A stretch of 43,338 nucleotides of DNA from Paenirhodobacter ferrireducens (GTDB taxonomy: Bacteria; Pseudomonadota; Alphaproteobacteria; Rhodobacterales; Rhodobacteraceae): contig NZ_SAVB01000031.1 of assembly GCF_004022265.1 (NCBI RefSeq), forward strand, positions 1 through 43,338, written 5' to 3'. Positions within the stretch are counted from its first letter, which is position 1. The number at the start of each line of letters is the position of its first letter. Under the pieces are notes generated by a model. That model had not been told where the DNA came from, ran no database searches, and was given only the letters and a program-made list of their open reading frames with translations. Position numbers and translations under genes: made by a program. This document shows, one piece after another, positions 936 to 19,377 of the stretch.

Positions 936-1919
936 ATGATGCACCTGCACCCCACCTCTGCCCCCTGCGAGCCCCGGCGGCGCGACCGGCTGCTCATTGC
1001 CGCGCTCGTCCTCGCGGTGCTGGGCGGGCTTGTCGGGCTGGTTGCAGGCACCGGCTGGGACGAGATCCGCGATCAGATCGGTGCGGTGCGGCCCTGGCAG
1101 CTTTGCGCGCTCCTTGGTCTCTCGCTTGCGAATTATCTCGCCCGGGCGCTGCGCTGGCACCTGCTCGCACGCCGTCTCGGCCTGCCCACCGATCTCGTGC
1201 AGGATGCCCGCCACTATCTCGGCGGCTTCGCGATGGCAGTGACACCGGGCCGGGTGGGCGAGCTGGTGCGGATGCGCTGGCTGCGCCGCGAAACCGGCTG
1301 GAGCGTGACGCGCACCGCCCCGCTCGCGCTGATGGACCGCGCGGGCGACCTGGCCGCGATGGGGCTCTTGCTCGCGCTCGCGGTCGCGCTGGCCGCGGGC
1401 GGTATCGCGGGCGCGCTGCCGGTCACCGGGCTTGCGCTGGCGGCGGCGGTGATCGCCACCCGCCCGGCGCTGCTCGCCGCCCTCGTCACCCTCGCCTTCC
1501 GCGCGCTCGGCCGCTTCCCGCGCGCCTTCGCCCGCGCCCGCGGTGCGGCGCGCTCGCTCGCCCGCTTCAGCCACGGCCCGACGCTGAGCCTTGCGCTTGC
1601 CCTCGGCCTTGCCGGCTGGGGCGCCGAGGCGTTTTCCTTCCACCTGCTGCTCGGATGGATGGGCGCCGATGTCGGGCTGTGGAAAGCCGTCGCGATCTTC
1701 GTCTTCGCCACGCTCGCAGGCGGGCTCACCGGTGCGCCGGGCGGGCTTGGCGGGGCCGAGGCGGCGATGGTCGCGCTGCTGACGCTCGAGGGCGTGCCGC
1801 TCGCCGTCTCGGTGCCGGCCACCGCCCTCATCCGCCTCACCACACTTTGGTTCGCGATCGCGATCGGCCTTGCAGCCTTCCCGCTCGCCGAACGCGCCTC
1901 CCTGAAAGCCCAAGGATAA
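936..1919 (+). CDS. PF03706/UPF0104-type integral membrane protein, candidate lipid-linked sugar flippase
   Basis: This 327-residue protein is very hydrophobic, with about seven or eight membrane segments. It resembles the membrane domain of lysylphosphatidylglycerol synthases (LPG_synthase_TM, UPF0104). The GGLGGAEAAM motif around residues 270-278 is typical of the C-terminal part of that family, and no aminoacyl-transfer domain is attached. Start candidates are ATG 936 and ATG 939. It sits 10 bases ahead of the DprE1-like gene and probably heads a three-gene operon. Members of this family often accompany genes for polyprenyl-linked sugars. My inference is that it helps move polyprenyl-phosphate-pentose across the inner membrane, in place of the GtrA-like protein of mycobacteria. 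That role is not visible from motifs alone. Confidence 0.75.
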   Translation: MMHLHPTSAPCEPRRRDRLLIAALVLAVLGGLVGLVAGTGWDEIRDQIGAVRPWQLCALLGLSLANYLARALRWHLLARRLGLPTDLVQDARHYLGGFAMAVTPGRVGELVRMRWLRRETGWSVTRTAPLALMDRAGDLAAMGLLLALAVALAAGGIAGALPVTGLALAAAVIATRPALLAALVTLAFRALGRFPRAFARARGAARSLARFSHGPTLSLALALGLAGWGAEAFSFHLLLGWMGADVGLWKAVAIFVFATLAGGLTGAPGGLGGAEAAMVALLTLEGVPLAVSVPATALIRLTTLWFAIAIGLAAFPLAERASLKAQG

Positions 1920-1929
1920 GGGTCTGACA

Positions 1930-3956: not shown

Positions 3957-4010
3957 ACGGGCAGGCAGCCGCGCCGCCGCCAGCGCCGCACGCCTCCGGC
4001 GGGAGGATTT

Positions 4011-4037: not shown

Positions 4038-4040
4038 CTT

Positions 4041-4125
4041 GGCGAAAATACTCCCGGGGGTGGGGGGGGGGGGGGGGGGGGGGGGGGGGCCGCCCCCGCG
4101 CCCCCCCCCCCCCCCCACCCCCCCC
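4041..4125. repeat. Intergenic element with a 28-G run facing C runs of 16 and 8
   Basis: The segment starts like the local intergenic repeat (GGCGAAAATACTCCCGGGGGT). It then turns into 28 consecutive G (4062-4089), followed by a C-rich stretch with runs of 16 (4101-4116) and 8 C (4118-4125). The C runs end two bases before the stop codon of the convergent HAD-UbiA gene. The two tracts are complementary and could form a long G:C hairpin or a G-quadruplex. Homopolymers of this length are also a common place for sequencing or assembly error. The exact length should not be trusted. Confidence 0.6.
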
Positions 4126-4127
4126 TC

Positions 4128-5561: not shown

Positions 5562-5563
5562 GG

Positions 5564-6433
5564 TTATCCTTTCAGGGCGAAGACGCAGCCGTCCGTCACC
5601 AGCTCGGGCGGCGAGAGGCACAGCCCCCGCGCCACCTGCCAGGCGGCGAGCACCTTCGGAACGTAATCGCGGGTCTCGGCATAGGGCGGCACGCCCCCTG
5701 CCCGCTTCACCGCGTTCTCGCCGGCGTTATAGGCGGCGATGACCATCAGCGGATCGCGGTCGAATTCCTTCATCAGCCAGTCGAGATAGGCCACCCCGCC
5801 GCGGATGTTCTTGCCCGGGTCGGTGCTGTCGTCGACGTCGAATCGCGTGGCCGTCGCGGGGATCAGCTGCATCAGCCCGACCGCGCCCGAGCGCGACACC
5901 GCATCCGGCCGCCCGCCCGATTCGGTCGAGATCACCGCCAGCACCAGCGCCGGCGAAACCTCGGTACCGATCGTCGCCGCGAGAATATCGCGGCCATGGC
6001 GGTCGGCGATGTCTTGCAGATGCGCCAGACGCGGCGCGCGCACGCTTTGCCCGCCCGGGCCGGAGGAGAGCGCCTCAAGCGCCTTCTGGAATCGCCCGGC
6101 GCGGTCGCCAAGCGTGGGCGAGACCGTCGTCCAGTACCAGCCATAGGAAGACGGTGCGCCCTGCGGCATCACCCCGCCCGGGGTGATGATCTCGGCCCCC
6201 GGCATCCGGGTCACCGGCGCAAAGGGACGGGACGCGGCGGCGGCCAGCTCGCGCGCCTGTTCCTCGGGGTTGATCTGGATCGTCAGGAATCGCTTCGTGC
6301 CCGGCGCGGGCGGCAGCACGCGCTTCGGCTTGAAGAAATTCACGGTCGGTGTGTCATGGCGCACCTCGGCCGCCAGCGGCGCGGCCAGAACTGCCGCGCA
6401 GACCAAGAGAGTCGCTGCCCATCTGCTGCGCAT
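5564..6433 (-). CDS. Lytic transglycosylase of the SLT (family 1) type
   Basis: This 289-residue exported protein cleaves peptidoglycan glycan strands with formation of 1,6-anhydro-muramic acid. The N-terminal 22 residues (MRSRWAATLLVCAAVLAAPL) are a signal peptide. The catalytic domain begins near residue 155, with the acid Glu171 in AVISTESGG. The family motifs GAVGLMQLIPATA (183-195) and NIRGGVAYLDWL (209-220) follow. A longer in-frame start exists upstream, but only ATG 6433 gives a proper signal sequence. The gene points away from the pilus operon across a 352-base gap and is directly upstream of the HAD-UbiA gene. It could remodel the wall for pilus passage, as transglycosylases do for other secretion machines. 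That role is inference from position. Confidence 0.88.
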   Translation of the reverse strand: MRSRWAATLLVCAAVLAAPLAAEVRHDTPTVNFFKPKRVLPPAPGTKRFLTIQINPEEQARELAAAASRPFAPVTRMPGAEIITPGGVMPQGAPSSYGWYWTTVSPTLGDRAGRFQKALEALSSGPGGQSVRAPRLAHLQDIADRHGRDILAATIGTEVSPALVLAVISTESGGRPDAVSRSGAVGLMQLIPATATRFDVDDSTDPGKNIRGGVAYLDWLMKEFDRDPLMVIAAYNAGENAVKRAGGVPPYAETRDYVPKVLAAWQVARGLCLSPPELVTDGCVFALKG

Positions 6434-6785: not shown

Positions 6786-6995
6786 ATGAAATTCTTCAAA
6801 ATCGCCCGCAAGATCCGCACCGAAGAAGACGGCGCCGTGACCGTTGACTGGGTCGTGCTGACCGCCGCCGTCGTCGGCCTCGGCGCCGCCGCGCTCGCCA
6901 CCATCAGCACCAACACCAAGAAAGCGGCTGGCAATATCGGCAGCTACCTCGGGTCGGTGGATGTCACCACCACCACCCCCGCGGTAGACGGCTGA
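6786..6995 (+). CDS. Flp-like pilin 1
   Basis: This 69-residue prepilin has a basic leader ending in Gly16, then a hydrophobic helix AVTVDWVVLTAAVVGLGAAA. Cleavage after Gly16 gives a mature protein of 53 residues, normal for Flp pilins. The usual Glu5-Tyr6 of mature Flp is replaced by Asp5-Trp6 (residues 21-22). The C-terminus reads VDVTTTTPAVDG, with four threonines (61-64) and a proline, which looks like a possible O-glycosylation site. A good Shine-Dalgarno sequence precedes ATG 6786, and a strong terminator follows. As first gene of the tad cluster it is probably the main pilin, but a pseudopilin role cannot be excluded. Confidence 0.85.
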   Translation: MKFFKIARKIRTEEDGAVTVDWVVLTAAVVGLGAAALATISTNTKKAAGNIGSYLGSVDVTTTTPAVDG

Positions 6996-7021
6996 GCCAC
7001 AGCGGCAAGCATCCGCACGGG

Positions 7022-7047
7022 AAGGCCGCACCTCGGGTGCGGCCTTT
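7022..7047 (+). terminator. Terminator or attenuator after pilin 1
   Basis: A perfect 11-bp stem (AAGGCCGCACC at 7022-7032 with GGTGCGGCCTT at 7036-7046) with a 3-base loop is followed by T-rich sequence. It sits between the first pilin and the rest of the pilus genes. It would make the pilin transcript much more abundant than the machinery transcript. Confidence 0.85.
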
Positions 7048-7202
7048 CCCCTTTCGGCCGGCGCCCCCCGGCTTTTCGCCCGCAGAAGACGCCCACGAGA
7101 TTGCATGCCAGCGCCGCATTTTTGCCAATAAATCCGGTCAGAAAGACACGATGGCGCGGTCGGACGCGTGATGAACCCACCCTGTACAGGAGAGATACTG
7201 CA

Positions 7203-7400
7203 ATGCAGAAGGTCCGCCACAGGCTTCGGAGGCTCCGTTCCGAGGAGGGGGCAGTCACTGTCGACTGGGTCGTTCTGACGGCCCTGCTGGTCCCGCTCGG
7301 CATGGTGGTCGGCACTCTGATCTGGGGGCCGACCGAAAATGCAGCCGAACATGTCGCAAGTTTCATCGGCGCGCAGACGACGCTGGTGCCCGGTAACTGA
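7203..7400 (+). CDS. Flp-like pilin 2
   Basis: This 65-residue protein is a paralogue of pilin 1. Both have a basic leader, cleavage site Gly16-Ala17 and the identical core GAVTVDWVVLTA, again with Asp5-Trp6 in the mature numbering. The rest differs: the hydrophobic helix is shorter, and the C-terminus (SFIGAQTTLVPGN) lacks the threonine run. The mature form would have 49 residues. ATG 7203 follows the ribosome binding site CAGGAGAG; an in-frame start at 7101 would give an unlikely 34-residue extension. It is separated from pilin 1 by a terminator and precedes cpaB by 78 bases. It may be a minor or alternative pilin. Confidence 0.82.
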   Translation: MQKVRHRLRRLRSEEGAVTVDWVVLTALLVPLGMVVGTLIWGPTENAAEHVASFIGAQTTLVPGN

Positions 7401-7478
7401 CCGCATCCTCCCGGCGCAGGCCGGCCGGCTGCCCCTCTGACCGGGACCACCCCGGCCCCGAGCGAAAGGAAGTGTAAA

Positions 7479-8348
7479 ATGCGCCTCGTCGTCGTTCTTG
7501 TCCTCGCTCTCGGCGTCACGCTCGCCGGCGCTGCGGTCTACCTGTTCCAGGGACAGCTGACGCAGTTTCAACAGCAGCGCGACATGCTGATGGCGGTGCA
7601 GGCGAAGATCCCGCCGCTGACCGATGTCGTGATTGCCAAGCGCGCCCTGAAATACGGCGAGCGCTTCACCATCGCCGATCTCGACATTGCCAAGGTCCAG
7701 GCCGACAAGGTGCCCGCGGGCGCCTTCCACCTGCTGACCGCACGGCAGGGCACGCCCGAAGCGCAGCTCGCCGCCTTCCTCGAGGGCGAGACGCGGCCGC
7801 GCGCCGCATTGCGTTCCTTCGAGGCGAACGAGCCGATCCTCGGCACCAAGATCACCGTTCCGGGCGTCGATGCCGGGATCATGGCCAACCTCGCCCCCGA
7901 CAAGCGCGCCTTCACCATCCAGGTCGATGTCGCCTCGGGCGTGTCGGGCTTCCTGCGGCCGGGCGACCGGGTCGACGTCTACTGGTCGGGCGCCGTCAAC
8001 GGCGAGCCGGTGACGAAGCTGATCGACACCAACCTGCAGCTGATCGCCATCGACCAGAGCGCCGATGCCGACCGCAGCGAGGAGACCAAGATCGCCCGCA
8101 CCGTCACCGCCGAGGTCACCCCCGAACAGGTCGCGGCGCTGACGCTGGCGCAGTCGACCGGCAAGCTCACCCTCGCGCTCGTCGGCATGACCAACACCGC
8201 CGAACTCGGCGCGATCGAGATCGACCGTGACCAGCTTCTGGGCATCCAGGCACAGGAAGCGGTGAAGGTCGAGGCGCCCAGGGTCTGCACGATCAAGACC
8301 CGCAAGGGCAGCGACGTGATCGAGACCCAGATCCCCTGCACGAACTGA
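7479..8348 (+). CDS. cpaB: Flp pilus assembly protein CpaB (RcpC)
   Basis: This 289-residue protein is anchored by one N-terminal membrane segment (about residues 3-20) and is otherwise periplasmic. The SAF-like domain follows, with VVIAKRALKYGERFTIADL near residue 50 and the family phrase GFLRPGDRVDVYW near 160. A C-terminal disulfide-like Cys pair is visible in RVCTIKTRKGSD and QIPCTN. CpaB/RcpC is thought to work with the secretin in the outer part of the Tad machine. ATG 7479 follows an AAAGGAAG ribosome binding site. Gene order (pilin, cpaB, cpaC) supports the assignment. Confidence 0.93.
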   Translation: MRLVVVLVLALGVTLAGAAVYLFQGQLTQFQQQRDMLMAVQAKIPPLTDVVIAKRALKYGERFTIADLDIAKVQADKVPAGAFHLLTARQGTPEAQLAAFLEGETRPRAALRSFEANEPILGTKITVPGVDAGIMANLAPDKRAFTIQVDVASGVSGFLRPGDRVDVYWSGAVNGEPVTKLIDTNLQLIAIDQSADADRSEETKIARTVTAEVTPEQVAALTLAQSTGKLTLALVGMTNTAELGAIEIDRDQLLGIQAQEAVKVEAPRVCTIKTRKGSDVIETQIPCTN

Positions 8349-8550
8349 CGCCTCGGGCCCGTGCCCGTCTGGCAACCGACTCTGCCCCGGCGCGGACACG
8401 GGCGGGGGCGCATGAATTTCACCTCACAATCGGTTGATTCTTGCAATAATTAACGCTTTCCGGCACAGTCGGCCGGAAGTGGGCATGCAAGACCCTGAAA
8501 ACGGACACGCGTTCCGGGCAGTGTGACGTGATCGGAGAGGCGAGATCACA

Positions 8551-9984
8551 ATGAAGATCAAGAGGTTCCTGACGGCTTGCGCGCTTGGCGCCGCGCTCGG
8601 GCTTGCGGTGGCGCCGATGGCCCAGGCGGAAACCCTGCGGGTGATGTCGGGCTCGACCTCTGCCCCGCTGAGCGTGCCGATGAACCGCGCCGTGGTGGTC
8701 GAAAGCGATCAGCCCTTCTCGGAGCTGTCGATCGCCAACCCCGGCATCGCCGACATCACCACCCTGTCCGACAAGACGATCTATGTACTCGGCAAGCTGC
8801 CCGGCCGCACCACGATGACCATTCTCGGCCCGGACGGGAAGCTGATCTCGAACGTCGAAGTACAGGTCACCCCCGACATCGCCGAGTTCAAGGAACGACT
8901 GAAGCAGATTCTGCCCGGCGAGAACATCGAGGTCCGCACCGCCAATGACGGCATCGTGCTGTCGGGCACCGTCTCCTCGACCGCCAAGCTCGACCGCGCG
9001 CTCGACCTGGCCAAGCGCTACGCAGGCGACCGGGTGTCGAACCTGATGACCGTCGGCGGCACGCAGCAGGTGATGCTGAAGGTGCGCTTTGCCGAAATGC
9101 AGCGCTCGGTTTCGAAGAACCTCGCGGCCTCGCTCGGCGTGCGCGGCACCGTGGGCGGCGGCAAGGCCCAGACCGGGGTGATCACCGGCACCGGCAACTT
9201 CGGCTCCGCAGGCGCGATTTCGGACGCCTTCGACAAGGGCACGATGCCGCTTTCTGGCGGCGGCACGGGCGCGCTCGGCCTCGGCTTCACCGCCGGCAAC
9301 CTCGAATTCGCGGTGCTGCTCGAGGCGCTCGAATCGAAGGGCATGGTGCGCACGCTTGCCGAGCCGAACCTGACCGCGCTCTCGGGCCAGCAGGCGAAGT
9401 TCCTCGCCGGCGGCGAATACCCGATCCCGGTGATCGACGGCACCAACGGCGGCATCTCGATCGAGTACAAGCCCTTCGGCGTCGAGATGGCGTTCACCCC
9501 GCGCGTCGTCGACGGCGATCTGATCAACCTCGAGATCGCGGCCTCGGTCTCGGCGATCGACACCTCGGTGACGATGTCGAACGGCAGCTTCTCGGTCAAT
9601 GCCTTCAAGAAGCGCGAGACCTCGACCACCGTCGAGATGCGCGACGGCGAGAGCTTTGCCATCGCCGGTCTGCTGCAGGACGACTTCAACGATCTGAACG
9701 ACCAGATCCCATGGCTCGGTGACGTGCCGGTTCTGGGCGCACTGTTCCGTTCGACCTCGTTCGAACGCAAGCAGTCCGAACTGGTGATCATCGTCACGCC
9801 GCACCTTGTGCAGCCCACCCGCGGCGAGGCGCTGGCGCTGCCGACCGACCGGGTCCGCCTGCCGAGCGAGAAGGACCTGTTCCTCTTCGGCAAGACCACC
9901 GGTTCCGGTGCGCCGACCTCCGGCCCGGCCGCCGAGGTTGCCAAGCAGGACTTTTCCGGCTCCTATGGCTATGTGATGGAGTGA
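8551..9984 (+). CDS. cpaC: Flp pilus secretin CpaC (RcpA)
   Basis: This 477-residue outer-membrane secretin is the pore for the Flp pilus. A signal peptide ends near Ala26 (MAQA/ETLRV). Next come the pilus/BON-like N-terminal domains (LSDKTIYVLGKLPGRTTM, then VLSGTVSSTAKLDRAL). The secretin domain runs from about 170 to 430, with VMLKVRFAEMQRSVSKNLA, LAEPNLTALSGQQAKFLAGG and DIPWLGDVPVLGALFRS-like family motifs (here NDQIPWLGDVPVLGALFRST). The gene is preceded by a 202-base gap with an A/T-rich patch at 8410-8460, so it may have its own promoter. It abuts the OmpA-type lipoprotein gene. Confidence 0.95.
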   Translation: MKIKRFLTACALGAALGLAVAPMAQAETLRVMSGSTSAPLSVPMNRAVVVESDQPFSELSIANPGIADITTLSDKTIYVLGKLPGRTTMTILGPDGKLISNVEVQVTPDIAEFKERLKQILPGENIEVRTANDGIVLSGTVSSTAKLDRALDLAKRYAGDRVSNLMTVGGTQQVMLKVRFAEMQRSVSKNLAASLGVRGTVGGGKAQTGVITGTGNFGSAGAISDAFDKGTMPLSGGGTGALGLGFTAGNLEFAVLLEALESKGMVRTLAEPNLTALSGQQAKFLAGGEYPIPVIDGTNGGISIEYKPFGVEMAFTPRVVDGDLINLEIAASVSAIDTSVTMSNGSFSVNAFKKRETSTTVEMRDGESFAIAGLLQDDFNDLNDQIPWLGDVPVLGALFRSTSFERKQSELVIIVTPHLVQPTRGEALALPTDRVRLPSEKDLFLFGKTTGSGAPTSGPAAEVAKQDFSGSYGYVME

Positions 9985-9987
9985 GTG

Positions 9988-10656
9988 ATGCAGCGGGAAC
10001 GTCCGGCACTGCGGTTTGGCCTGATCCTGGCAGCGGCCCTCGCGCTGGCTGGCTGCACCTCCGACCGCGAGGCCGGGGCTGATTACGAGGGCGGCGGCTT
10101 CGGCAACGCCACGATGAACAACACGCTGATGATGAGCGGCGAACGCAACATCGCCATCAGCCTGACGAAGAAATTCGCCGCCGATGTGCAGAACACGGTG
10201 AATTTCGCGTTCAACTCTGCGGCGCTCGACGGCCAGGCGCAGGACATCCTGCGCCGCCAGGCGGACTGGATCAAGCAGTTCCCCGAGGTGCGCTTCCGCG
10301 TCTACGGCCACACCGACCTTGTCGGGTCGGACGCCTACAACAAGGCGCTCGGCCTGCGCCGCGCCCAGGCGGTGGTCGCATTCCTGACCGCGCAGGGGAT
10401 CTCGCGCGCCCGGCTCGAGGCGGTCGTGTCCTTCGGCAAGACGCAGCCGCTGGTCTACACCCAGGCCCCGAACGAGCAAAACCGCCGCACGGTGACCGAG
10501 GTCTCGGGCCTGATGGCGCGCAGCCCGCAGCTGCTGAACGGCAAATATGCCGAGGTGATCTTCCGCGAATACGTGAGCGGCGCGACGCAGATCCCCACCA
10601 ACCAGGTCAGCAACCAGAACTCGGCAGGCGTCGGCATGTCGGGCAGCGGCAACTGA
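9988..10656 (+). CDS. OmpA-family lipoprotein of the tad locus (in the cpaD position)
   Basis: This 222-residue lipoprotein has lipobox LAGC at the end of its signal peptide (MQRERPALRF...ALAGC). It has a C-terminal OmpA-like peptidoglycan-binding domain from about residue 60 to 160, with VNFAFNSAALD, RVYGHTDLVGSDAYNKALGLRRA and NRRTVTEV. The domain should hold the secretin complex to the cell wall. Cluster-wise it sits where cpaD is found in Caulobacter, and no cpaD-like gene is present. ATG 9988 lies 3 bases past the cpaC stop; the GTG at 9985 is in frame as well. A terminator-like hairpin follows, so it may end the first transcript. Confidence 0.88.
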   Translation: MQRERPALRFGLILAAALALAGCTSDREAGADYEGGGFGNATMNNTLMMSGERNIAISLTKKFAADVQNTVNFAFNSAALDGQAQDILRRQADWIKQFPEVRFRVYGHTDLVGSDAYNKALGLRRAQAVVAFLTAQGISRARLEAVVSFGKTQPLVYTQAPNEQNRRTVTEVSGLMARSPQLLNGKYAEVIFREYVSGATQIPTNQVSNQNSAGVGMSGSGN

Positions 10657-10681
10657 GCTTTCCGCAGAACGTCAACAGTCG

Positions 10682-10712
10682 GGGGGGGCTTTGCAACAAA
10701 GCCCGCCCCTTT
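10682..10712 (+). terminator. Terminator-like hairpin between the OmpA lipoprotein and cpaE
   Basis: The stem GGGCTTTG (10686-10693) pairs with CAAAGCCC (10697-10704) around a CAA loop, is extended by GGGG/CCCC across a bulged G, and is followed by TTT. It splits the tad locus into an outer-membrane part and an ATPase/inner-membrane part. The 180 bases that follow hold no clear promoter. Confidence 0.7.
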
Positions 10713-10891
10713 GCATTGATCGTCGCCCGATACCCCACAATTGGAACAATCCGGCCCCAATGTCGCCCAGATTGACCGCGACCTTGAGCGCAGACGGAAA
10801 GGCACGGCATCCGAGTCGTGCCCGGATCGCATCCGCGGCAGGCCTCCCCCCAGCCCCGGGTTGCGACACGCGCAACAAAGGACGTGAGGCA

Positions 10892-12154
10892 ATGACTGCA
10901 GCAGCTGTACTGACCCCTGACCCCGCCCCCATCGTGGCCTGCACGGTGTCCCGCGACGTCTCGAACTTCGACCTGCTGATCGAGGACATGGAAGCCGAGC
11001 TCGGCGAGAGCTGGGGTGATCTCGGCTTCGAGGATGCCATGGTCTTCCTCGGCCAGCCCGATGCCCGGAGCCTCGAATTCATCGCCATCGCCATCGACAG
11101 CGACGACGAGCATGACCTCGCCCGGATCTCGGGTATCATCACCGAGGCGAAGAACCGCGGCATCCGCGTGATCCTGATCGCCGAGGAGGTGAGCCCGATC
11201 GCGCTGCACCAGCTGCTGCGCCTCGGCGCCGACGATTTCGTTCCCTACCCGCTGCCTGAAGGCTCGCTGCACGAGGCGATCGAGCGCCTCGGCCAGTCCG
11301 AGCTGCCGCCCGAGCTGCCCGCCCATGCCGCGCCGCCAAGCTTCAAGCCGACCGGCGGACGCAACGGCGCGGTGCTCGCCGTGCACGGGCTCGCGGGTGG
11401 CGTCGGGGCCACCACCTTCGCGGTCAACCTGGCGTGGGAACTGGCCAATCCCGAAACGAGCAAGAAGAACCCGGTGACGCCGCCGCGCGTGTGCCTGCTC
11501 GATCTCGACCTGCAATATGGCTCGGTCGCGACCTATCTCGACCTGCCCCGCCGCGAGGTGATCTTCGAGCTGCTGTCGGACACCGCGCAGATGGATGCCG
11601 AGAGCTTCGGCCAGGCGCTGCTGACCTTCAACGACAAGCTGCACGTGCTGACCGCGCCCTCGGACATGCTGCCGCTCGACATCGTCGGCGGCGAGGATAT
11701 CGAGCGGCTGATCGAGATGGCGCGCACCAATTTCGACTATGTCGTGATCGACATGCCGAAGACGGTGGTGAGCTGGACCGAGACGGTGCTGAACCAGGCC
11801 CATGTCTACCTTGCCCTGCTCGAACTCGACATGCGCTCGGCGCAGAATGCGCTGCGGATGATCCGGGCGCTCAAGGCCGAGGGGCTTGCCACCGAAAAGC
11901 TGCGCTACATCCTGAACCGGGCGCCGAAATTCACCGATCTGAACGGCAAGTCGCGGGTGAAGCGCCTGGCCGAGAGCCTCGACATCGCGATCGAGGTGCA
12001 GCTGTCGGACTGCGGCAAGCTGGTGACCCAGGCGAATGACCACGGCCTGCCGCTCGCGCTCAGCGCGGCGAAGGCGCCGTTGCGCCGCGACATCCAGAAG
12101 ATCGCCCAGTCGCTGATCGAACGCAACCAGCAGGAGGCGGCAACCGCCGCCTGA
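10892..12154 (+). CDS. cpaE: Flp pilus localisation ATPase CpaE (TadZ)
   Basis: This 420-residue cytoplasmic protein has a receiver-like N-terminal domain (about 40-130, with VILIAEEVSPIALHQLLRLGADDFVPYPL) and a MinD/ParA-type domain from about 150. The nucleotide loop reads GLAGGVGATTFAVNLAW. As in other CpaE/TadZ proteins, the usual Lys of GKT is replaced (GAT). CLLDLDLQYGSVATYLDLP and YVVIDMPKTVVSWTE follow as the Walker B and switch regions. TadZ directs the Tad machine to the cell pole. ATG 10892 is chosen for its ribosome binding site (AAAGGACGTGAGG); the frame stays open for 67 codons upstream without one. Confidence 0.93.
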   Translation: MTAAAVLTPDPAPIVACTVSRDVSNFDLLIEDMEAELGESWGDLGFEDAMVFLGQPDARSLEFIAIAIDSDDEHDLARISGIITEAKNRGIRVILIAEEVSPIALHQLLRLGADDFVPYPLPEGSLHEAIERLGQSELPPELPAHAAPPSFKPTGGRNGAVLAVHGLAGGVGATTFAVNLAWELANPETSKKNPVTPPRVCLLDLDLQYGSVATYLDLPRREVIFELLSDTAQMDAESFGQALLTFNDKLHVLTAPSDMLPLDIVGGEDIERLIEMARTNFDYVVIDMPKTVVSWTETVLNQAHVYLALLELDMRSAQNALRMIRALKAEGLATEKLRYILNRAPKFTDLNGKSRVKRLAESLDIAIEVQLSDCGKLVTQANDHGLPLALSAAKAPLRRDIQKIAQSLIERNQQEAATAA

Positions 12155-12178
12155 ACCGTCGCCGTCCGGAGGTAGATG

Positions 12179-13651
12179 ATGTTTTCCCGCTACAAGAAGT
12201 CGACGCCTGCCACCCGGACCGCCGCGGCCACCGCGGCCCCCCCCACCACCGCGCCGGCCACGGGCTCTGCGCCGCCGCCGCTGCCGAAGGCCGAGACGGC
12301 CAAATACGCGGTGCACCGCAAGCCCGCCCCCACCGCCCAGGCCCCCGCCCAGGCGGTGCAGGCCGAGAAGGACCGCAAGCGCAAGGAGCGTATGGGCGAG
12401 CTCAAGGTCGAGCTGCACAAGCGCCTGCTCGAGAACCTCAACCTCGCCGCGCTCGAACACGCAACCGAGGCCGATCTCAAGTCCGAGATCGCCGCGATCT
12501 CGAACGAGGCGATGGCCGAGATGTCGGTGGCGCTGAACGCGACCGAGCGGCAGACACTCTATCAGGAACTCTACGACGAGGTGATGGGGCTCGGCCCGCT
12601 CGAGCCGCTGCTGAAGGACGAGACGGTCTCGGACATCCTGGTCAACGGCCCGCAGCAGATCTTCATCGAGCGCGGCGGCAAGCTGCAGCTGACCGACGTC
12701 ACCTTCAAGGACGAGAAGCACCTGCTGCGGATCATCGACAAGATCGTCTCCGCCGTGGGCCGCCGCGTCGATGAGTCGAACCCCTATGTCGACGCCCGCC
12801 TCGCCGACGGCTCGCGCTTCAACGCGATGGTGCCGCCGGTCGCCGTCGACGGCTCGCTGGTCTCGATCCGAAAGTTCAAGAAGGACAAGCTCGGCATCGA
12901 CGACCTCGTCCGCTTCGGCGCCTTCACCGAGGAGATGGCCGCCTATCTGCAGGCCGCCGTCGCCACCCGGCTGAACATCATCGTCTCGGGCGGCACCGGC
13001 TCGGGCAAGACAACGACGCTGAACGCACTCAGCTCCTTCATCGACAACTCCGAACGCATCCTGACGATCGAGGACACGGCGGAACTGCAGCTGCAGCAGA
13101 CCCATGTCGGCCGGATGGAAAGCCGCCCGGCCAACGTCGAGGGCCGCGGTGCTGTCACCCAGCGCGATTGTCTGCGCAACGCCCTGCGTATGCGTCCCGA
13201 CCGCATCATCGTCGGCGAAACCCGCGGCGAGGAAGTCATCGACATGCTGCAGGCGATGAACACCGGCCACGACGGTTCGATGACCACGATCCACGCGAAC
13301 TCGGCGCGCGATGCGGTCTCGCGTCTGGAAAACATGATCGCAATGTCGGGCATCGAGATGCCGATCAAGGCGATGCGCTCGCAGATCGCCTCGGCCGTCA
13401 ACCTGATCGTGCAGGCCTCGCGCCTGCAGGACGGCTCGCGCCGTATGGTCTCGATCACCGAGGTCACCGGCATGGAGGGCGAGGTGATCTCGATGCAGGA
13501 AATCTTCCGCTACGAGCGGCTCGGCCTGGCCCCCGACGGCAAGATCATCGGCCGCTTCACCGCGACCGGCGTGCGCTCGCATTACTCGGAACGCTTCCGG
13601 CAATGGGGCTACGACCTGCCGGCCGCGATCTACGATCCCGTTCTCGACTGA
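12179..13651 (+). CDS. cpaF: Flp pilus assembly ATPase CpaF (TadA)
   Basis: This protein of about 490 residues is the secretion ATPase that powers Flp assembly. The first 80 residues are Ala/Pro/Thr-rich and variable. An N-terminal helical domain with LVNGPQQIFIERGGKL follows. Walker A is GGTGSGKTT at residues 271-279, the Asp box is TIEDTAELQLQQ, and Walker B plus His box is RIIVGETRGEEVIDM with GSMTTIHANSARD. ATG 12176 and 12179 are both possible; the second has better spacing from GGAGG at 12168-12172. It follows cpaE by about 25 bases and precedes tadB by 9. Confidence 0.96.
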   Translation: MFSRYKKSTPATRTAAATAAPPTTAPATGSAPPPLPKAETAKYAVHRKPAPTAQAPAQAVQAEKDRKRKERMGELKVELHKRLLENLNLAALEHATEADLKSEIAAISNEAMAEMSVALNATERQTLYQELYDEVMGLGPLEPLLKDETVSDILVNGPQQIFIERGGKLQLTDVTFKDEKHLLRIIDKIVSAVGRRVDESNPYVDARLADGSRFNAMVPPVAVDGSLVSIRKFKKDKLGIDDLVRFGAFTEEMAAYLQAAVATRLNIIVSGGTGSGKTTTLNALSSFIDNSERILTIEDTAELQLQQTHVGRMESRPANVEGRGAVTQRDCLRNALRMRPDRIIVGETRGEEVIDMLQAMNTGHDGSMTTIHANSARDAVSRLENMIAMSGIEMPIKAMRSQIASAVNLIVQASRLQDGSRRMVSITEVTGMEGEVISMQEIFRYERLGLAPDGKIIGRFTATGVRSHYSERFRQWGYDLPAAIYDPVLD

Positions 13652-13660
13652 GGTGGCGCC

Positions 13661-14629
13661 ATGGTCATTTCCCCAACCCCGATCATCTACGGCCTGATCT
13701 TCGTCGCCGTCATCCTGCTCGTCGAGGGCATCTACCTGCTCGCCTTCGGCAAGTCGATCTCGCTCAACCGCAAAGTCAACCGCCGGCTCGAGATGCTCGA
13801 CAAGGGCGTGCGCCGCGAGGAGGTGCTCGAACGGCTGCGCAAGGAGGCGACGCAGCACCTGACCTCGAAAGGCATCCCGCTCTATTCGATCCTCGCCTCG
13901 AAAGCGCAGAAGGCGAATATCGCCTTCTCGCCGAAGGCACTCGTCGGGATCATGGGGCTGTTGTGCGTCGTGGCCTTCCTCGGCCTGTCGCTCGGCACCG
14001 ACGCAAGCGCGCCGGTGCGCGTCGCGCTGTCGATCGCCATGGGCGTCGGCGGGATCTATTTCTGGGTGTCGTCGAAGGCCTCGAAGCGGCTCAAGCTTGC
14101 CGAGGAGCAGTTGCCCGACGCGGTCGAGCTGATCGTGCGCGCGCTGCGCGTGGGCCATCCCTTTTCCTCGGCGATCCAGACCGTCGCGCGCGAGATCCCC
14201 GACCCGCTCGGCACCGAATTCGGCATCATCGCCGACGAGGCCGCCTATGGCCGCAACGTGGTCGACAGCCTGCGCGACCTGGCCGAGCGGCTCGACATGC
14301 AGGACCTGCGCTTCCTCGCCGTCGCGGTGTCGATCCAGCAGACCTCGGGCGGCAACCTCGCCGAGGTGCTCGAGGGCCTCGCCAAGGTGATCCGTGCCCG
14401 GTTCCGGCTGTTCCGCCGCGTTCGCGCAATCACCGCCGAACCGAAATGGTCGGGCGTGTTCCTGTCGGGCTTTCCGCTTGCGGTGCTGCTGATCATCCAG
14501 ATCCTCGACCCGCATTACTATGACACGGTGAAGGAAACGCCGCAGTTCATGCCCGCCGCGCTGATCGTCTTTGCGTTGCTCGGCGCGAACGTCCTGTTCA
14601 TGAAGATCATGACCACGATCAAGGTCTGA
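13661..14629 (+). CDS. tadB: Flp pilus inner-membrane protein TadB
   Basis: This 322-residue protein has a first membrane segment at about 5-25, two more at about 90-130, and a C-terminal pair near 265-315. Between them is the T2SSF (GspF-like) cytoplasmic domain: LPDAVELIVRALRVGHPFSSAIQTVAREIPDPLG-like text and QQTSGGNLAEVLEGLAKVIR are characteristic. TadB and TadC together form the inner-membrane platform on which CpaF acts. The ribosome binding site is GAGGTGG, and the gene is tightly packed between cpaF and tadC. Confidence 0.93.
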   Translation: MVISPTPIIYGLIFVAVILLVEGIYLLAFGKSISLNRKVNRRLEMLDKGVRREEVLERLRKEATQHLTSKGIPLYSILASKAQKANIAFSPKALVGIMGLLCVVAFLGLSLGTDASAPVRVALSIAMGVGGIYFWVSSKASKRLKLAEEQLPDAVELIVRALRVGHPFSSAIQTVAREIPDPLGTEFGIIADEAAYGRNVVDSLRDLAERLDMQDLRFLAVAVSIQQTSGGNLAEVLEGLAKVIRARFRLFRRVRAITAEPKWSGVFLSGFPLAVLLIIQILDPHYYDTVKETPQFMPAALIVFALLGANVLFMKIMTTIKV

Positions 14630-14639
14630 GGAGGCTGCG

Positions 14640-15644
14640 ATGAGCGACATCCTGAACATGCTGACCCGTGCTTTCGGTCCGATGGGGCCGGTCCTGGCGA
14701 TGGCGGTGATCGGCCTTCTTCTCGTCGTCGCCACGCTCCCGGCGTTGCTGAAGAAACAGGCCGACCCGCTCGACAAGCTGCGCGCGACCAGCGAGATGCC
14801 GGCAGCGCCAGCGCGCGACACCGACCGCGGCAAGGCCAAGCCGCAGAAGCTGCGCGCCGACCAGGGCTCGGACAAGCTCGACAGATATGCGGGCTTCCTC
14901 GAGCCGAAGAACAAGGACGAGATGACCGAGGCGCGCAAATGGCTGCAGCGCGCGGGCTATCGCAGCCCCTCGGCGGTGCGCACCTTCCATGCGATCCAGT
15001 TCGCGATGGGGCTTGGTCTGCTAGGTCTCGGCATCGCCTATGCACTCTACATGAACGCCACCGGCCCGGTGCCGCTGACGCCGACGCAGATGATCCTTTA
15101 CGTGCTGCTGCCCGGCGCCTTTGGCTACATCGCGCCCAAACGCTGGGTGAACGCCCGCGTCAACGCCCGCACCCAGGAGATCCAGGACGGCTTCCCCGAT
15201 GCGCTCGACATGCTGCTTGTCTGCGTCGAGGCAGGGCAGTCGCTCGACCAGGGGATCGTGCGCGTCGCCAAGGAGCTGCAGGGCTCCTACCCGGCAATGG
15301 CCGAGGAGTTCGAGACCGTCGCGCACGAGATCAAGGCCGGCCTCGACAAGGCCGTCGTGCTGCGCGCCTTCGGCGAGCGCAGCGGGGTGATGGATGTGAT
15401 GTCCTTCACCACGGTAATGATCCAGAGCCAGCAGTTCGGCACCTCGATCGCCGACGCGCTGCGCCTTTATGCCGCCGACATGCGCGACAAGCGCGTGATG
15501 CGCGCCGAGGAGGCCGCGAACAAGATCCCGACGAAGATGACCCTCGGCACGATGATGTTCACCGTGCCGCCGCTGCTGATCATCCTTGTCGGCCCCTCGG
15601 TCCATGATATGCTTGAGAACTTCAAGGCGATCGGCGTGCACTGA
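14640..15644 (+). CDS. tadC: Flp pilus inner-membrane protein TadC
   Basis: This 334-residue protein is the second T2SSF platform protein. It has an N-terminal membrane anchor, a charged linker (residues 40-95), a membrane pair at about 120-170, and the T2SSF domain with FPDALDMLLVCVEAGQSLDQ and FGTSIADALRLYAADMRDKR. A last hydrophobic segment (MFTVPPLLIILVGPSV) completes it. GAGGAGG-like sequence precedes ATG 14640, and the stop codon overlaps the start of the next gene (TGATG). Confidence 0.93.
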   Translation: MSDILNMLTRAFGPMGPVLAMAVIGLLLVVATLPALLKKQADPLDKLRATSEMPAAPARDTDRGKAKPQKLRADQGSDKLDRYAGFLEPKNKDEMTEARKWLQRAGYRSPSAVRTFHAIQFAMGLGLLGLGIAYALYMNATGPVPLTPTQMILYVLLPGAFGYIAPKRWVNARVNARTQEIQDGFPDALDMLLVCVEAGQSLDQGIVRVAKELQGSYPAMAEEFETVAHEIKAGLDKAVVLRAFGERSGVMDVMSFTTVMIQSQQFGTSIADALRLYAADMRDKRVMRAEEAANKIPTKMTLGTMMFTVPPLLIILVGPSVHDMLENFKAIGVH

Positions 15645-16207
15645 TGTTCCCTTTCCCGCGCAGCCCGGTTGTGGCTGCCCTGCTTCTCGGCCTGCTGGCC
15701 GCCTGTTCGGGCGGTCTGTCTCCTCCGGAAAACAGCCCCTATGCCCCCGGGGCGGCGCAGGGCGAAGGCGTCGACGGGCTGATCGTCGGCCACCGACTGA
15801 TGGCGGCGGGGGAATACGAGCTCGCGCTCAAGGCCTATTACCGCGCCGCGGCCGAACATGGGGCGAATGCCGATGTGCTCTCGGCGATCGGCTCGGCCGA
15901 TCTCAAGCTCGGCCGGCTGAATCAGGCCGAGCAGATGCTGCGCCGCGCAGTCGAGGAGGACCAGACCTTCGTGCCCGCCTGGAACAATCTCGGCGTGGTG
16001 CTGATGGAACGCGGCAAGGTGCCCGAGGCGGCCCGCGTGTTCCAGACCGCTTATGCGCTCGACAGTGGCCAATCGGACGCGATCCGCGAAAACCTCCGCC
16101 TCGCGCTCGCAAAGATGGACAAACCCGCCTATGATCCAGCCCAGGACAAGCCGTTCAAGCTGGTCCGGCGCGGGGCTGGCGAATACCTTCTGCTGACCCG
16201 GCAATGA
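15644..16207 (+). CDS. tadD: TPR lipoprotein TadD
   Basis: This 187-residue lipoprotein has lipobox LAAC at residues 18-21, then an extracytoplasmic TPR region. Three helical repeats are visible (AAGEYELALKAYYRAAAEHG, LKLGRLNQAEQMLRRAVEED, NLGVVLMERGKVPEAARVF). TadD is thought to act as an outer-membrane pilotin or scaffold for the secretin. It overlaps tadC by one base and the next frame by four. Confidence 0.88.
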   Translation: MFPFPRSPVVAALLLGLLAACSGGLSPPENSPYAPGAAQGEGVDGLIVGHRLMAAGEYELALKAYYRAAAEHGANADVLSAIGSADLKLGRLNQAEQMLRRAVEEDQTFVPAWNNLGVVLMERGKVPEAARVFQTAYALDSGQSDAIRENLRLALAKMDKPAYDPAQDKPFKLVRRGAGEYLLLTRQ

Positions 16208-16233
16208 GGTACGAGCAAGAAGGACGCAGACAA

Positions 16234-17100
16234 ATGCGCCACCCGATCCTGTCAACGGCGCTCGCGGGCGCCGCGCTCCTTTTCGCACTCGCCGGTTGCG
16301 GCGGTCGCCAGGATGCCGAGGCAGCGCGGGCGCTGAAAAGCGTGAATGCCGTCGACGAGACGAACCTCTCCGACATCATGCTGACGGTGGGCGACCCGCA
16401 GGAAGCGGTGAATTACTTCACCCGCACCGCGGCCGAGAACCCCGGGCGCATTGACATTCAGCGCGGTCTGGCGAAATCGCTGATCCGCAACGGCCAGCCC
16501 GCCGAGGCGGCGAAGGCCTGGGCCAAGGTCATCACGATGCCCGGCGCGACGCCGGACGACAAGGTCGGCCTTGCCGATGCGCAGATCCGCTCGAACGACT
16601 GGGCCGGGGCCAAGGCGACGCTGAACACCATCCCGCCGACGCACGAGACCTACGAGCGCTACAAGCTCGAGGCGATGGTCGCCGACAGCGAGAAAAACTG
16701 GGCGAAGGCGGACAGCTTCTATGACACCGCCGTCGGGCTGACGACGCGGCCGGGCGGCGTGCTGAACAACTGGGGTTTCTCGAAGCTGACCCGGGGCGAT
16801 GCGAAGGGCGCCGAAAAGCTCTTTGCCGAGGCGCTGACCTACGAGCCGTCGAGCTTCACCACCAAGAACAACCTCGTGCTCGCCCGTGCGGCACAGCGCA
16901 AATATGACCTGCCGGTGATCGAGATGTCGCAAAGCGAACGCGCGCGGCTGCTCTACACCGCGGCGCTGTCGGCGGTGAAGCAGGGCGACGTGACGATCGG
17001 CAAGGGCCTGCTGCAGGATGCGGTCGACACCTCGCCCACCTATTTCGAGGAAGCGGCGCGCGCGCTCGAGGCGCTCGATTCCGGCTCAAAGAAGAGCTGA
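16234..17100 (+). CDS. Second TPR lipoprotein of the tad locus
   Basis: This 288-residue protein has a lipoprotein signal (lipobox LAGC, about residues 19-22) and TPR-like helices throughout, for example AVNYFTRTAAENPGRIDIQRG and SLIRNGQPAEAAKAWAKV. It resembles TadD in design but is longer, and probably also belongs to the outer-membrane side of the pilus machine. ATG 16234 is preferred over ATG 16204: it begins directly with the signal peptide and follows AAGAAGGA, whereas the earlier start adds ten charged residues. It is followed after three bases by the prepilin peptidase gene. Confidence 0.82.
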   Translation: MRHPILSTALAGAALLFALAGCGGRQDAEAARALKSVNAVDETNLSDIMLTVGDPQEAVNYFTRTAAENPGRIDIQRGLAKSLIRNGQPAEAAKAWAKVITMPGATPDDKVGLADAQIRSNDWAGAKATLNTIPPTHETYERYKLEAMVADSEKNWAKADSFYDTAVGLTTRPGGVLNNWGFSKLTRGDAKGAEKLFAEALTYEPSSFTTKNNLVLARAAQRKYDLPVIEMSQSERARLLYTAALSAVKQGDVTIGKGLLQDAVDTSPTYFEEAARALEALDSGSKKS

Positions 17101-17103
17101 GCG

Positions 17104-17607
17104 ATGCTGGCCCTTTCCGCTCCTGCTGCGGCCCTCGTCCTGCTGCTGCTGGTCACCCCGATCTGCCTGTGGGTGATCTATACCGACCTGAAATACATGA
17201 AGATCCGCAACAGCGCCGTGCTGGCGCTGGTGGCGGTCTTTGCCGTGGCGGGCGTGCTGGTGCTGCCGATCGACGTGTGGCTGTGGCGCTGGCCCCATCT
17301 CGTGGTGATCCTGGCGATCGGCATCATGCTGAACGTGATCGCGCATTTCGGCGCGGGTGACGCGAAATTCGCCGCCGCCGCCGCGCCCTTCTTCTCGTCC
17401 TCGCCCGACTCGATCCGGCTGACCGTGATGCTGCTCGCCGGGCTGACGCTCGCCGCCTTCGCGGCCCATCGGCTGCTGCGCGCGATCCCCGCGATGCGCG
17501 CCCTCGCCCCCGACTGGGTCAGTTGGCGGCGGCGCGACTTCCCCTTCGGCCTCGGCCTTGCCGGCACACTCTGGGCCTATCTCGCCCTCGTTGCCGCCCT
17601 CGGCTGA
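17104..17607 (+). CDS. cpaA: Prepilin peptidase CpaA (TadV)
   Basis: This 167-residue type A24 aspartic peptidase of the inner membrane cleaves and processes Flp prepilins. It has about five membrane segments and both catalytic aspartates: Asp28 in YTDLKYMKIRN and Asp86 in HFGAGDAKF (GxGD motif). It lacks the N-methylating domain, as is normal for TadV/CpaA. It is the last gene of the + strand pilus operon, and its stop is only four bases from the stop of the convergent GT-C gene. The stop region forms a small palindrome (GGCTGAG-GG-CTCAGCC). Confidence 0.93.
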   Translation: MLALSAPAAALVLLLLVTPICLWVIYTDLKYMKIRNSAVLALVAVFAVAGVLVLPIDVWLWRWPHLVVILAIGIMLNVIAHFGAGDAKFAAAAAPFFSSSPDSIRLTVMLLAGLTLAAFAAHRLLRAIPAMRALAPDWVSWRRRDFPFGLGLAGTLWAYLALVAALG

Positions 17608-17611
17608 GGGC

Positions 17612-19261
17612 TCAGCCCCGCTCCGGGCGCAGCAGGATATAACCGTCGGTGCGCCGCTCCTCGATCAGGCGCCAGCCCGCGTCCGTGACCGCCTTCAGCA
17701 TCGTCGCGCTGTATTTCGCCTGCGACGGGCAGAGCGGCACCATCAGGTAATCGGCCGCCGCAATCCCGGGTGCACCGGCATAATACCAGGGCGCGCCCCC
17801 CTCGACCGGACGGAAATCGCCGAAAAGCCACAGCCCCGACAGCAGATCCGCAACCAGCACCGCACTGCCGCCATAGCCCGCCGCCTGCAGATCGGCCGCC
17901 GTCGTCTCGAACCAGCCCTGCCCACCCAGCTCGAGCGTGCAGGTGGGCAGGGTCTCGCCATTCAGCACCACGGGCGTCGGCCGGTCTTTCTCCGGCACCC
18001 GGTCGGCCAGCGCGGCGGCGGGAGACCCGGGCTCGGCCCCGGAGATCCTGCGCTGCACGCCGTAGGCATGGGCGGCACCGACCAGAAGCCCTGCCGCTTC
18101 CGAGCGTGCGGTCAGCATCGGCACCAGCCCCTCGCGTGGCATCAGCGCCGCGCGCAGCGGGCTGAACAGCAGGTTCAGCATCGACCCCGCGCCGAGGGCC
18201 AGCGCCGCCACGCCCAGGGAGAGGACCGCCGGGCGCAGCCGCCAGCCCAGCCCGTTCGTCAGGGTCTCCCCCGGCAGCAGCGCCAGCGCCACCAGCCCGA
18301 GCAGCGGCAGCCATTGCGGGTCGTTGCCGAAATTCTGGTAGGTGACATAGAGAAAGCCCGGCACCAGCAGCAGCAGGGCAAGCCCCGCCGCCCGCTCGCC
18401 CGCCTGACGCAGGAAGATTACCGCGAAAAGCGCCAGCAGCGAACCGCCGAGGTACTTCGGCCCGGTCATCACCATCGACAAGCTGTCACCCGGCGCCGCG
18501 CGCGTCTCCGACCCCGCCACCGATATCAGGTCGCGCAGATAGCCCGCCCAGAAATCGACACCCAGCAGCACCGTCGCCAGTGCCGCGACGGCCAGCCCGG
18601 CAAGCAGCGCTGCGAACACCCCCGCCGCCTCGCGCCGCGCCATCAGGCCGATCAGCACGGCGGGGGCGAAGGCGACGAAATAGGTGATCTTCAGCAGCGC
18701 CAGCATCGCCATCGCGCCGCCGATCAGCGCCCCGTCGAGCACCGGGCGTCGGCGCCCGATCGGCGCCATCAGCGCGAGCGGCAGCGCCAGATAGGCCAGC
18801 GCCCAGGCCCAGCGGTTGTAATGCATCGACAGCGCCAGCCCCGGCACCGTCTCGCCATGCACGAGGCCAAGGCACAGCACCAGCACGCAGACCCCGTAAA
18901 GCCAGGCCAGCCCGCCCGGAAAGCGCGAGCACGCCACCCGCAGCAGCGGCCCGAAGAGCAGCGTTGCAACCAGCGCCTGCGCCGCAAGAAAGGCGTGTGC
19001 GAAATCGAGCCCCAGCCGGGCGAACCCCGCAATCGGGGCAAAGCCCAGAATGCCGAGCGGCGTCATGAAATCGCGGTGCGGCAGCTCGCCGAACAGGGCC
19101 ATGCGCAGCACAATATCGACGAGGTGCAGCGCGTCGCCCTCATAGAGGGTCACCGGCAGCCCCTGCCCCACGAAGGGCAGTGCCGCCAGCGCCAGAGCAA
19201 AGACCGCCATCCCCGCCGCAAGCCGCCCCGGCCGCGCCGCCGTCCGCCGTGTCTCCGCCAT
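17612..19261 (-). CDS. Polytopic GT-C-like membrane glycosyltransferase candidate
   Basis: This 549-residue protein has about ten hydrophobic segments in residues 14-420, then a soluble C-terminal domain of about 130 residues that should face the periplasm. The first extracytoplasmic loop carries Glu41-Gly42-Asp43 in TLYEGDALHLVD and then ELPHRDFMTPLG. Acidic residues at this place are the hallmark of GT-C enzymes, which take sugar from polyprenyl-phosphate donors. ATG 19261 follows GGAGAGG; the reading frame extends 50 codons upstream without a ribosome binding site. A good promoter lies at 19296-19324. Position beside the pilus locus and 11 kb from the DprE genes makes an arabinofuranosyltransferase a reasonable guess. 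No close named homologue was recognised, and it might use another sugar or acceptor. Confidence 0.75.
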   Translation of the reverse strand: MAETRRTAARPGRLAAGMAVFALALAALPFVGQGLPVTLYEGDALHLVDIVLRMALFGELPHRDFMTPLGILGFAPIAGFARLGLDFAHAFLAAQALVATLLFGPLLRVACSRFPGGLAWLYGVCVLVLCLGLVHGETVPGLALSMHYNRWAWALAYLALPLALMAPIGRRRPVLDGALIGGAMAMLALLKITYFVAFAPAVLIGLMARREAAGVFAALLAGLAVAALATVLLGVDFWAGYLRDLISVAGSETRAAPGDSLSMVMTGPKYLGGSLLALFAVIFLRQAGERAAGLALLLLVPGFLYVTYQNFGNDPQWLPLLGLVALALLPGETLTNGLGWRLRPAVLSLGVAALALGAGSMLNLLFSPLRAALMPREGLVPMLTARSEAAGLLVGAAHAYGVQRRISGAEPGSPAAALADRVPEKDRPTPVVLNGETLPTCTLELGGQGWFETTAADLQAAGYGGSAVLVADLLSGLWLFGDFRPVEGGAPWYYAGAPGIAAADYLMVPLCPSQAKYSATMLKAVTDAGWRLIEERRTDGYILLRPERG

Positions 19262-19324: not shown

Positions 19325-19377
19325 TCCCGATGCCGCAGCGCCGCAGACGCGCCGGCACAGCCATGGCAGGACCGCCG

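Follow-up and report, generated by a model that had tools for sequence, protein, structure and literature searches.

A putative D-arabinofuranose transfer module coupled to a Tad/Flp pilus island in Rhodobacteraceae

D-arabinofuranose (D-Araf) is best known from mycobacterial walls. On pili, the glycosyltransferase TfpW puts alpha-1,5-linked D-Araf homopolymers on the group IV pilins of Pseudomonas aeruginosa, a modification tied to phage evasion (PMC11841053). Three-component pentofuranose systems, consisting of a phosphoribosyltransferase-HAD enzyme, a MATE flippase and a GT136 glycosyltransferase, were described by Kelly et al. (2024), who proposed DprE1/E2 for those that use Araf (PMC11127046); the word tad is absent from the main text of that article.

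Here we analyse a window of 43,338 nucleotides (the whole stretch of DNA under study), which is one contig of the 4.07-Mb genome of Paenirhodobacter ferrireducens and in which a Tad/Flp pilus island is flanked on both sides by candidate Araf genes. A PF03706-type membrane protein, a DprE1-like oxidase, a DprE2-like reductase and a HAD-UbiA fusion are encoded on the left, and a predicted glycosyltransferase of the GT-C class on the right. A first, sequence-only reading of this stretch had named the four left-hand genes beside a tad locus, and family searches recovered all of them at or near the places it gave. That this Araf-transfer module is coupled to the Tad island is well supported by co-occurrence, synteny, joint absence on both flanks and the predicted fold of the GT-C protein. 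The chemistry is known, the GT-C family is unnamed in the libraries searched and the place, a Tad island, is new. No description of an arabinosylated or DprE-linked Tad pilus was found in the titles and abstract openings of the open-licence literature, and the same literature on Tad pili of Rhodobacter capsulatus and on arabinosylated pili was likewise without one, in line with the sequence-only reading, which knew of no Tad pilus with arabinofuranose.

Co-occurrence and linkage of the module with tad genes

Our survey covered 120 genomes of the family, from 119 genera (numbered G below; L numbers denote loci). GT-C was found in 35 genomes and DprE1 orthologs in 32, all of them within those 35, while 85 genomes had neither (Fisher 5e-26 over the 120 genomes, kinship not corrected). 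These counts rest on 36 GT-C hits, one fragment row of G070 having been dropped, and on DprE1 hits in 63 genomes, where the orthologs are 31 strong hits and a contig-end fragment in G069; the remaining ones comprise seven genomes with a second DprE1 type, including the GT-C genome G112, and weak hits to flavin adenine dinucleotide (FAD) oxidases. Three GT-C genomes have no DprE1 ortholog: G019, whose contig begins within the block, with DprE2, and which was counted as DprE1-negative here and as positive in the independent-pairs test below; G112, where the second-type DprE1 and HAD-UbiA are present; and G102, to which we return. HAD-UbiA accompanies GT-C in 32 of the 35 genomes (31 above the cut-off, and G052, where the match lies below it and covers the UbiA part only) versus 14 of the 85 others. 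The UbiA gene is missing from the fetched island in seven GT-C genomes (G007, G024, G063, G079, G112, G116 and G117), five of which hold HAD-UbiA elsewhere; none was found in G079 and G117. On a quick tree of RcpC and CpaC, which has many weak forks and covers 92 of the 102 genomes with RcpC (CpaC was included for 89), the presence of GT-C requires at least 11 changes, six of them forced by supported branches, and DprE1 tracks GT-C in all six independent pairs (five or six when the pairs were drawn at random 200 times; median p 0.03). GT-C and DprE1 are coupled, and they co-vary almost perfectly.

Conservation of the block next to tad, which the sequence-only reading had put forward as a check, was observed for both ends of the island. 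For 28 of the 36 GT-C hits, RcpC is no more than 12 kb away, and 27 of the 28 lie roughly 10-11 kb downstream of it on the other strand. Among the other eight, GT-C and RcpC are on different contigs in G114, G069 and G064, the island is split between RcpC and CpaC in G003 and G036, and the rest are a tad deletion (G117), a second, distant copy (G057) and G102. The same 12-kb limit takes in DprE1 in 24 of 31 cases, the exceptions being on another contig in G012, G060, G064 and G080, together with G036, G103 (16 kb away, beyond the other end) and G117. The prepilin peptidase gene was found on the far side of GT-C in 71 of the 80 named relatives, at 1 kb or less in 70 of them, and the PF03706 gene in all 28 DprE1-holding loci among the 40 fetched from GT-C-positive genomes (as a weak match in L098). 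The arrangement of GT-C, DprE and UbiA genes recurs across many genera and is therefore more than chance.

Joint absence was inspected in 20 GT-C-negative islands, chosen for long contigs and not randomly. The transglycosylase gene and the genes from RcpC to the prepilin peptidase were complete and in order in 20/20, and the AAA gene followed the tad genes in 19; GT-C, PF03706, DprE1, DprE2 and UbiA were all missing from 20/20. Since both flanks are lost while the tad genes are kept, two gene sets about 12 kb apart come and go together. The lytic transglycosylase, being present in GT-C-negative genomes as well, is not part of the module. Moreover, GT-C, DprE1 and HAD-UbiA occur together in 30 of the 120 genomes (G052 by its UbiA part), all 30 with RcpC, and in none of the 18 RcpC-negative ones (Fisher 0.006, kinship not corrected).

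Several observations weigh against tying the module to the pilus. RcpC is common (102/120), hence its presence in 33 of the 35 GT-C genomes tells little; in G102, a distant GT-C occurs in the absence of DprE1, HAD-UbiA and RcpC, and G079 has GT-C and DprE1 with no HAD-UbiA found. In six Rhodobacter loci, GT-C adjoins the AAA gene, and the 10 kb on its other side are free of tad genes. R. capsulatus (L166, L277, L279) and R. viridis (L164, L278, L280) keep all parts at separate places: UbiA stays with the transglycosylase and tad genes, apart from a PF03706-DprE1-DprE2 set, which sits beside genes resembling by eye the CoA-transferase genes of the window, and from a GT-C-AAA pair. This layout reads as the move of a block spanning UbiA to the prepilin peptidase; the dispersal keeps the pathway and weakens linkage as an argument about the acceptor. 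The place beside tad could, in fact, be inherited synteny. A DprE block far from tad and served by another glycosyltransferase had been named in the sequence-only reading as a finding that would count against it. In Rhodobacter the block is indeed off tad, but the same GT-C is kept, and no other glycosyltransferase was recognised by eye (no family search) around the DprE blocks of R. capsulatus and R. viridis. All nine genomes with GT-C off tad, by a partial tad set or at a contig end hold RcpC and DprE1 (one as a fragment). G117, the sole genome in which GT-C and DprE1 occur without RcpC, bears a deletion scar (L095 9023-10237) that joins the N-terminal part of DprE2 in frame to the TPR gene of the tad set; the prepilin peptidase gene is retained along with GT-C and DprE1, and RcpC, CpaF, pilins and HAD-UbiA were not found.

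Perhaps, then, the module decorates a surface polysaccharide (lipopolysaccharide O-chain, capsule or exopolysaccharide) with Araf side chains, in the manner of the Citrobacter-type three-component systems, and owes its tad neighbourhood to accident and inheritance. This reading would agree with the one three-component system that has been characterised, whose acceptor is O-antigen (PMC11127046), with the persistence of GT-C and DprE1 in Rhodobacter genomes whose tad genes are elsewhere, and with the pilin-tail association, which is not significant under phylogenetic control (see below). Yet the module is missing on both sides of every otherwise colinear GT-C-negative island inspected, its three enzymes never meet in an RcpC-less genome of the survey, and no polysaccharide genes were recognised by eye near the DprE blocks of R. 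capsulatus and R. viridis; we therefore hold a polysaccharide acceptor to be unlikely, though a serious candidate.

Predicted activities of the module proteins

Because both proteins score below the curated NCBIfam equivalog cut-offs, we name them DprE1-like (368 bits against 500 for NF053785) and DprE2-like (160 bits against 250 for NF053786). The former matches DprE1 crystal structures over nearly its full length, with the GKNHH and AKD stretches aligned, and the latter scores better in the general family PRK07102 of short-chain dehydrogenases/reductases (SDR; 266.5 against a cut-off of 267). The HAD-UbiA protein exceeds the cut-off of NF006088, matches decaprenyl-phosphate phosphoribosyltransferase families below theirs (E 7e-44) as well as the structure of such an enzyme, 8j8j, and in Pfam passes for UbiA and falls short for HAD (23.3 against 27). 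By homology, it is predicted to be a polyprenyl-phosphate phosphoribosyltransferase joined to a phosphatase. The PF03706 protein is above the cut-off of the flippase-like family TIGR00374 and is a candidate flippase for polyprenyl-phosphate-Araf, a role slightly helped by the GtrA-like protein that adjoins DprE1 in a cluster of the second type (L273).

The low family scores of the DprE1-like and DprE2-like proteins would also suit a sugar other than D-Araf, such as ribofuranose, or a GT-C that uses a different polyprenyl-phosphate donor and merely lies beside the DprE block; in addition, a GT136 enzyme accepts two pentofuranoses, according to PMC11127046. The near-perfect co-variation of GT-C with DprE1 argues the other way, and so does the adjacency in which the DprE1- and DprE2-like genes are kept, as epimerisation to Araf requires, which makes this the least probable of the alternatives and a very improbable one.

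Pfam, NCBIfam and PDB sequence searches with the 549-aa GT-C protein were all without a match, and a profile of its relatives against the PDB gave two weak, unconvincing matches only. A structure predicted from an alignment of 61 rows (pLDDT 93, pTM 0.92) was more telling. Foldseek placed ALG3 and AftD on top (each at about 8e-4, with no other match reaching E 0.001), followed by AftA, EmbB and ArnT. VIA-align scores among the matches listed were 12.9 for Pmt1, 12.7 for ArnT, 12.0 for AftA, 10.3 for AftD, 7.4 for EmbB and 5.3 for AftB, and its top 42 rows, judged by title, are GT-C enzymes or complexes holding one. The protein is thus predicted to belong to the GT-C fold class, and the comparison with Emb proteins that the sequence-only reading had proposed reveals a fold shared with EmbB. 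GT87 matched 10 of the 61 family members (best E 3.5e-5) and did not match the protein of the window itself.

The polytopic GT-C-like protein after the prepilin peptidase gene and the EGD in its first outer loop, both noted in the sequence-only reading, were found again, with E41-G42-D43 lying after helix 1, between predicted helices 11-31 and 41-57. A conserved acidic residue in the stretch after the first transmembrane helix is a mark of the GT-C superfamily, and at this position it is catalytic in other GT-C enzymes (PMC11127046). In the 61-row alignment, which takes in 60 of the 80 named relative loci, G42, D43, D64 and R150 are found in 61/61 and E41 and H62 in 60/61; in a second one of 34 rows, with distant copies, D43 is kept in 33 (one gap) and E41 in 32. 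Altogether 339 relatives were found, of which the 80 named ones were kept. A GT-C protein 83% identical to that of the window is encoded in G046, the nearest surveyed genome and of the same genus, and likewise in Sinirhodobacter hankyongi (NZ_RCHI01000026.1), which is probably the same record. The GT-C frame is broken by one stop codon each in L209 (8663-10222) and L232 (10001-11596). Distant relatives are encoded in L101 (8940-10619, G057), near genes resembling by eye a sugar ABC transporter, and in L100 (3870-5483, G102, a 5.8-kb contig); no tad or DprE match was seen within either fetched stretch.

Proposed pathway and the question of the acceptor

If the two flanks of the tad island form one pathway, the HAD-UbiA protein would convert phosphoribosyl pyrophosphate to polyprenyl-phosphate-ribose, with removal of the 5-phosphate, and the DprE1-like and DprE2-like proteins would turn the product into polyprenyl-phosphate-D-arabinofuranose. 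The PF03706 protein would flip this donor to the periplasm, where GT-C would use it and transfer Araf. The most likely acceptor would be a part of the Tad pilus, foremost the Ser/Thr-bearing C-terminal tail of the Flp pilin, before or during assembly, and the benefit may be protection of the pilus against phages, which has been reported of TfpW. What the analysis shows is the gene families, the predicted fold of GT-C and the coupling both of GT-C to DprE1 and of the module to the tad island; what the enzymes do, which sugar they make, whether PF03706 flips it, what it is put on and to what end are inferred, and we lean slightly towards the pathway as a whole, with Araf made by the flank genes and put on a Tad pilus part.

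The tail VTTTTPAVDG, which the sequence-only reading had pointed out in pilin 1, is present in the translation. For the comparison between genomes, the pilin most like pilin 1 of the window was taken from each, perhaps not the major pilin everywhere, and the tail features were picked after inspection of the tails. Ser/Thr in the last 12 residues amount to 3.79 in GT-C genomes (n=33) versus 2.51 in the others (n=57; p 4e-5, uncorrected), and a tail motif occurs in 15/33 versus 7/57, also uncorrected. Tails lacking acidic residues differed in the same direction in 3.9 of 6 independent pairs, with none opposite (p 0.125, not significant). Three results speak against the tail as the site of modification: in independent pairs the Ser/Thr enrichment does not reach significance (median p 0.25-0.5) and the motif has no association (0.6 for, 0.5 against), and G052 and G070 possess GT-C and yet have SQAPN pilin tails like those of GT-C-negative genomes. 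The proposal of the sequence-only reading, that the Araf logic of arabinosylated type IVa pilins serves this pilus, thus stands for the pathway and its coupling to tad, which are well supported; the Flp acceptor stays putative, its tail signal being not significant under phylogenetic control. In R. viridis (L278 4776-7061), five similar Flp pilin genes and a sixth, different one lie in tandem before RcpC.

Another envelope or Tad-machine protein, such as a pseudopilin, the secretin or the OmpA-like lipoprotein, may instead be the acceptor. The locus evidence fits such a protein equally, the Flp tails are unremarkable in some GT-C genomes, and protein O-mannosyltransferases are among the best structural matches, even though a shared fold proves no function. 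Against this, no specific candidate emerged, and the only TadE match in the same genome is on a different contig; we consider such an acceptor improbable. As to the acceptor, then, a part of the Tad pilus seems a little likelier than anything else taken together, chiefly the Flp pilin, whose role is putative only.

A broader proposal, which we hold to be evenly balanced, is that O-arabinosylation of Flp tails is widespread and undescribed in Rhodobacterales and is carried out by a new GT-C family gained and lost as a unit across a 12-kb island. If this is true, a Tad/Flp pilus bearing D-Araf would be the second pilus class on this pathway, and a GT-C family that lacks annotation and counts hundreds of proteins would gain a function. 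The coating of pili with Araf, perhaps against pilus-binding phages, would then have arisen more than once, and R. capsulatus, carrying all parts, would be a workable model.

Gene map and comparison with described systems

The features are collected in Table 1. RcpC/CpaB, Flp prepilins and a prepilin peptidase are found together, as in a Tad/Flp (type IVc) island, and the tad genes span 6786-17607. The two prepilins, which carry GAVTVDWV, were assigned by inspection and from their resemblance across genomes (no search with an Flp family was made). The start of dprE2 overlaps the end of dprE1 at position 3225, and the GT-C gene is convergent with that of the prepilin peptidase. Between dprE2 and the UbiA gene, at 4062-4125, a run of 28 G (4062-4089) is followed by C-runs of 16 and 8, a tract that could stem from misassembly, form a hairpin or be prone to slippage. 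Elsewhere in the genome, on a contig other than that of the tad island, a match to TadE and a weak, RcpC-like one (below the cut-off) were located at C49:26144-26272 and C49:38495-38788.

Table 1. Genes of the tad island and its flanks in the window
Feature	Position	Strand	Evidence or remark
CoA-transferase gene	46-693		left of PF03706 gene
PF03706 / TIGR00374 flippase-like membrane protein, 327 aa	936..1919	+	Pfam E 8e-43; TIGR00374 E 5e-20
DprE1-like FAD oxidase, 431 aa	1930..3225	+	NF053785 E 7e-110; PDB DprE1 E 2e-71
DprE2-like SDR reductase, 243 aa	3225..3956	+	adh_short E 3e-27; NF053786 E 6e-47
HAD-UbiA fusion, 477 aa	4128..5561	-	NF006088 E 2e-154; PDB 8j8j E 6e-27
SLT-type lytic transglycosylase	5564..6433	-	PF01464 E 7e-29; left edge of tad island
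Flp prepilin 1, 69 aa	6786..6995	+	tail VTTTTPAVDG; candidate acceptor
Flp prepilin 2, 65 aa	7203..7400	+	
RcpC/CpaB	7479..8348	+	PF16976 E 2e-26, above cut-off
CpaC/RcpA secretin (presumed)	8551..9984	+	similarity, synteny
OmpA-like lipoprotein (presumed)	9985..10656	+	similarity, synteny
TadZ/CpaE (presumed)	10892..12154	+	similarity, synteny
CpaF/TadA ATPase (presumed)	12176..13651	+	similarity, synteny
TadB (presumed)	13661..14629	+	similarity, synteny
TadC (presumed)	14640..15644	+	similarity, synteny
TadD-like TPR lipoprotein	15644..16207	+	TPR families, synteny
Second TPR protein	16204..17100	+	TPR families, synteny
Prepilin peptidase (TadV/CpaA)	17104..17607	+	PF01478 E 5e-7, above cut-off
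GT-C glycosyltransferase (predicted), 549 aa	17612..19261	-	without Pfam or NCBIfam family
AAA ATPase	19330..20688	+	right edge of island, not part of Araf module

The second DprE1 type was seen in seven of the 120 genomes (L273-L276 from G101, G112, G107 and G041, and also G011, G078 and G084). It resembles the module of the window in bringing together DprE1-like, DprE2-like and HAD-UbiA genes, which was the case in all four fetched loci. It differs by the GtrA-like protein (tested in one cluster, L273, where a 578-aa protein of no known family also adjoins DprE1) and by its position, since none of the seven is within 12 kb of RcpC: only two share a contig with it, at 55 kb and 3.7 Mb, and five are on RcpC-less contigs.

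With the mycobacterial decaprenyl-phosphate-arabinose pathway, the window shares homologous proteins resembling decaprenyl-phosphate phosphoribosyltransferase, DprE1 and DprE2, and its GT-C protein has a predicted fold in common with AftA, AftD and EmbB. Nevertheless, its DprE proteins remain below the equivalog cut-offs, its GT-C has no sequence match to AftA, AftD or Emb structures, and the phosphatase, separate in mycobacteria according to PMC11127046, is here fused as HAD-UbiA.

With the three-component systems, the module has in common a phosphoribosyltransferase of the UbiA type that is linked to a HAD phosphatase, a step of epimerisation (DprE1/E2 proposed for Araf), a flippase candidate and a GT-C. 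Of these, the UbiA-type enzyme with its HAD domain and the DprE1/DprE2-type genes were found in the window by family-level similarity. The acceptor reported there is the O-antigen and the flippase belongs to the MATE family, whereas the flippase candidate here, within the block to which the search for MATE was confined, is PF03706, and the module is linked to tad.

Finally, the TfpW system is alike in D-Araf as the proposed sugar and in having a GT-C gene next to those of type IV pilins (PMC11841053). The pilin is of type IVa there and a short Flp (type IVc) pilin here; moreover, the present module flanks a whole tad island on both sides, and its acceptor is a putative one.

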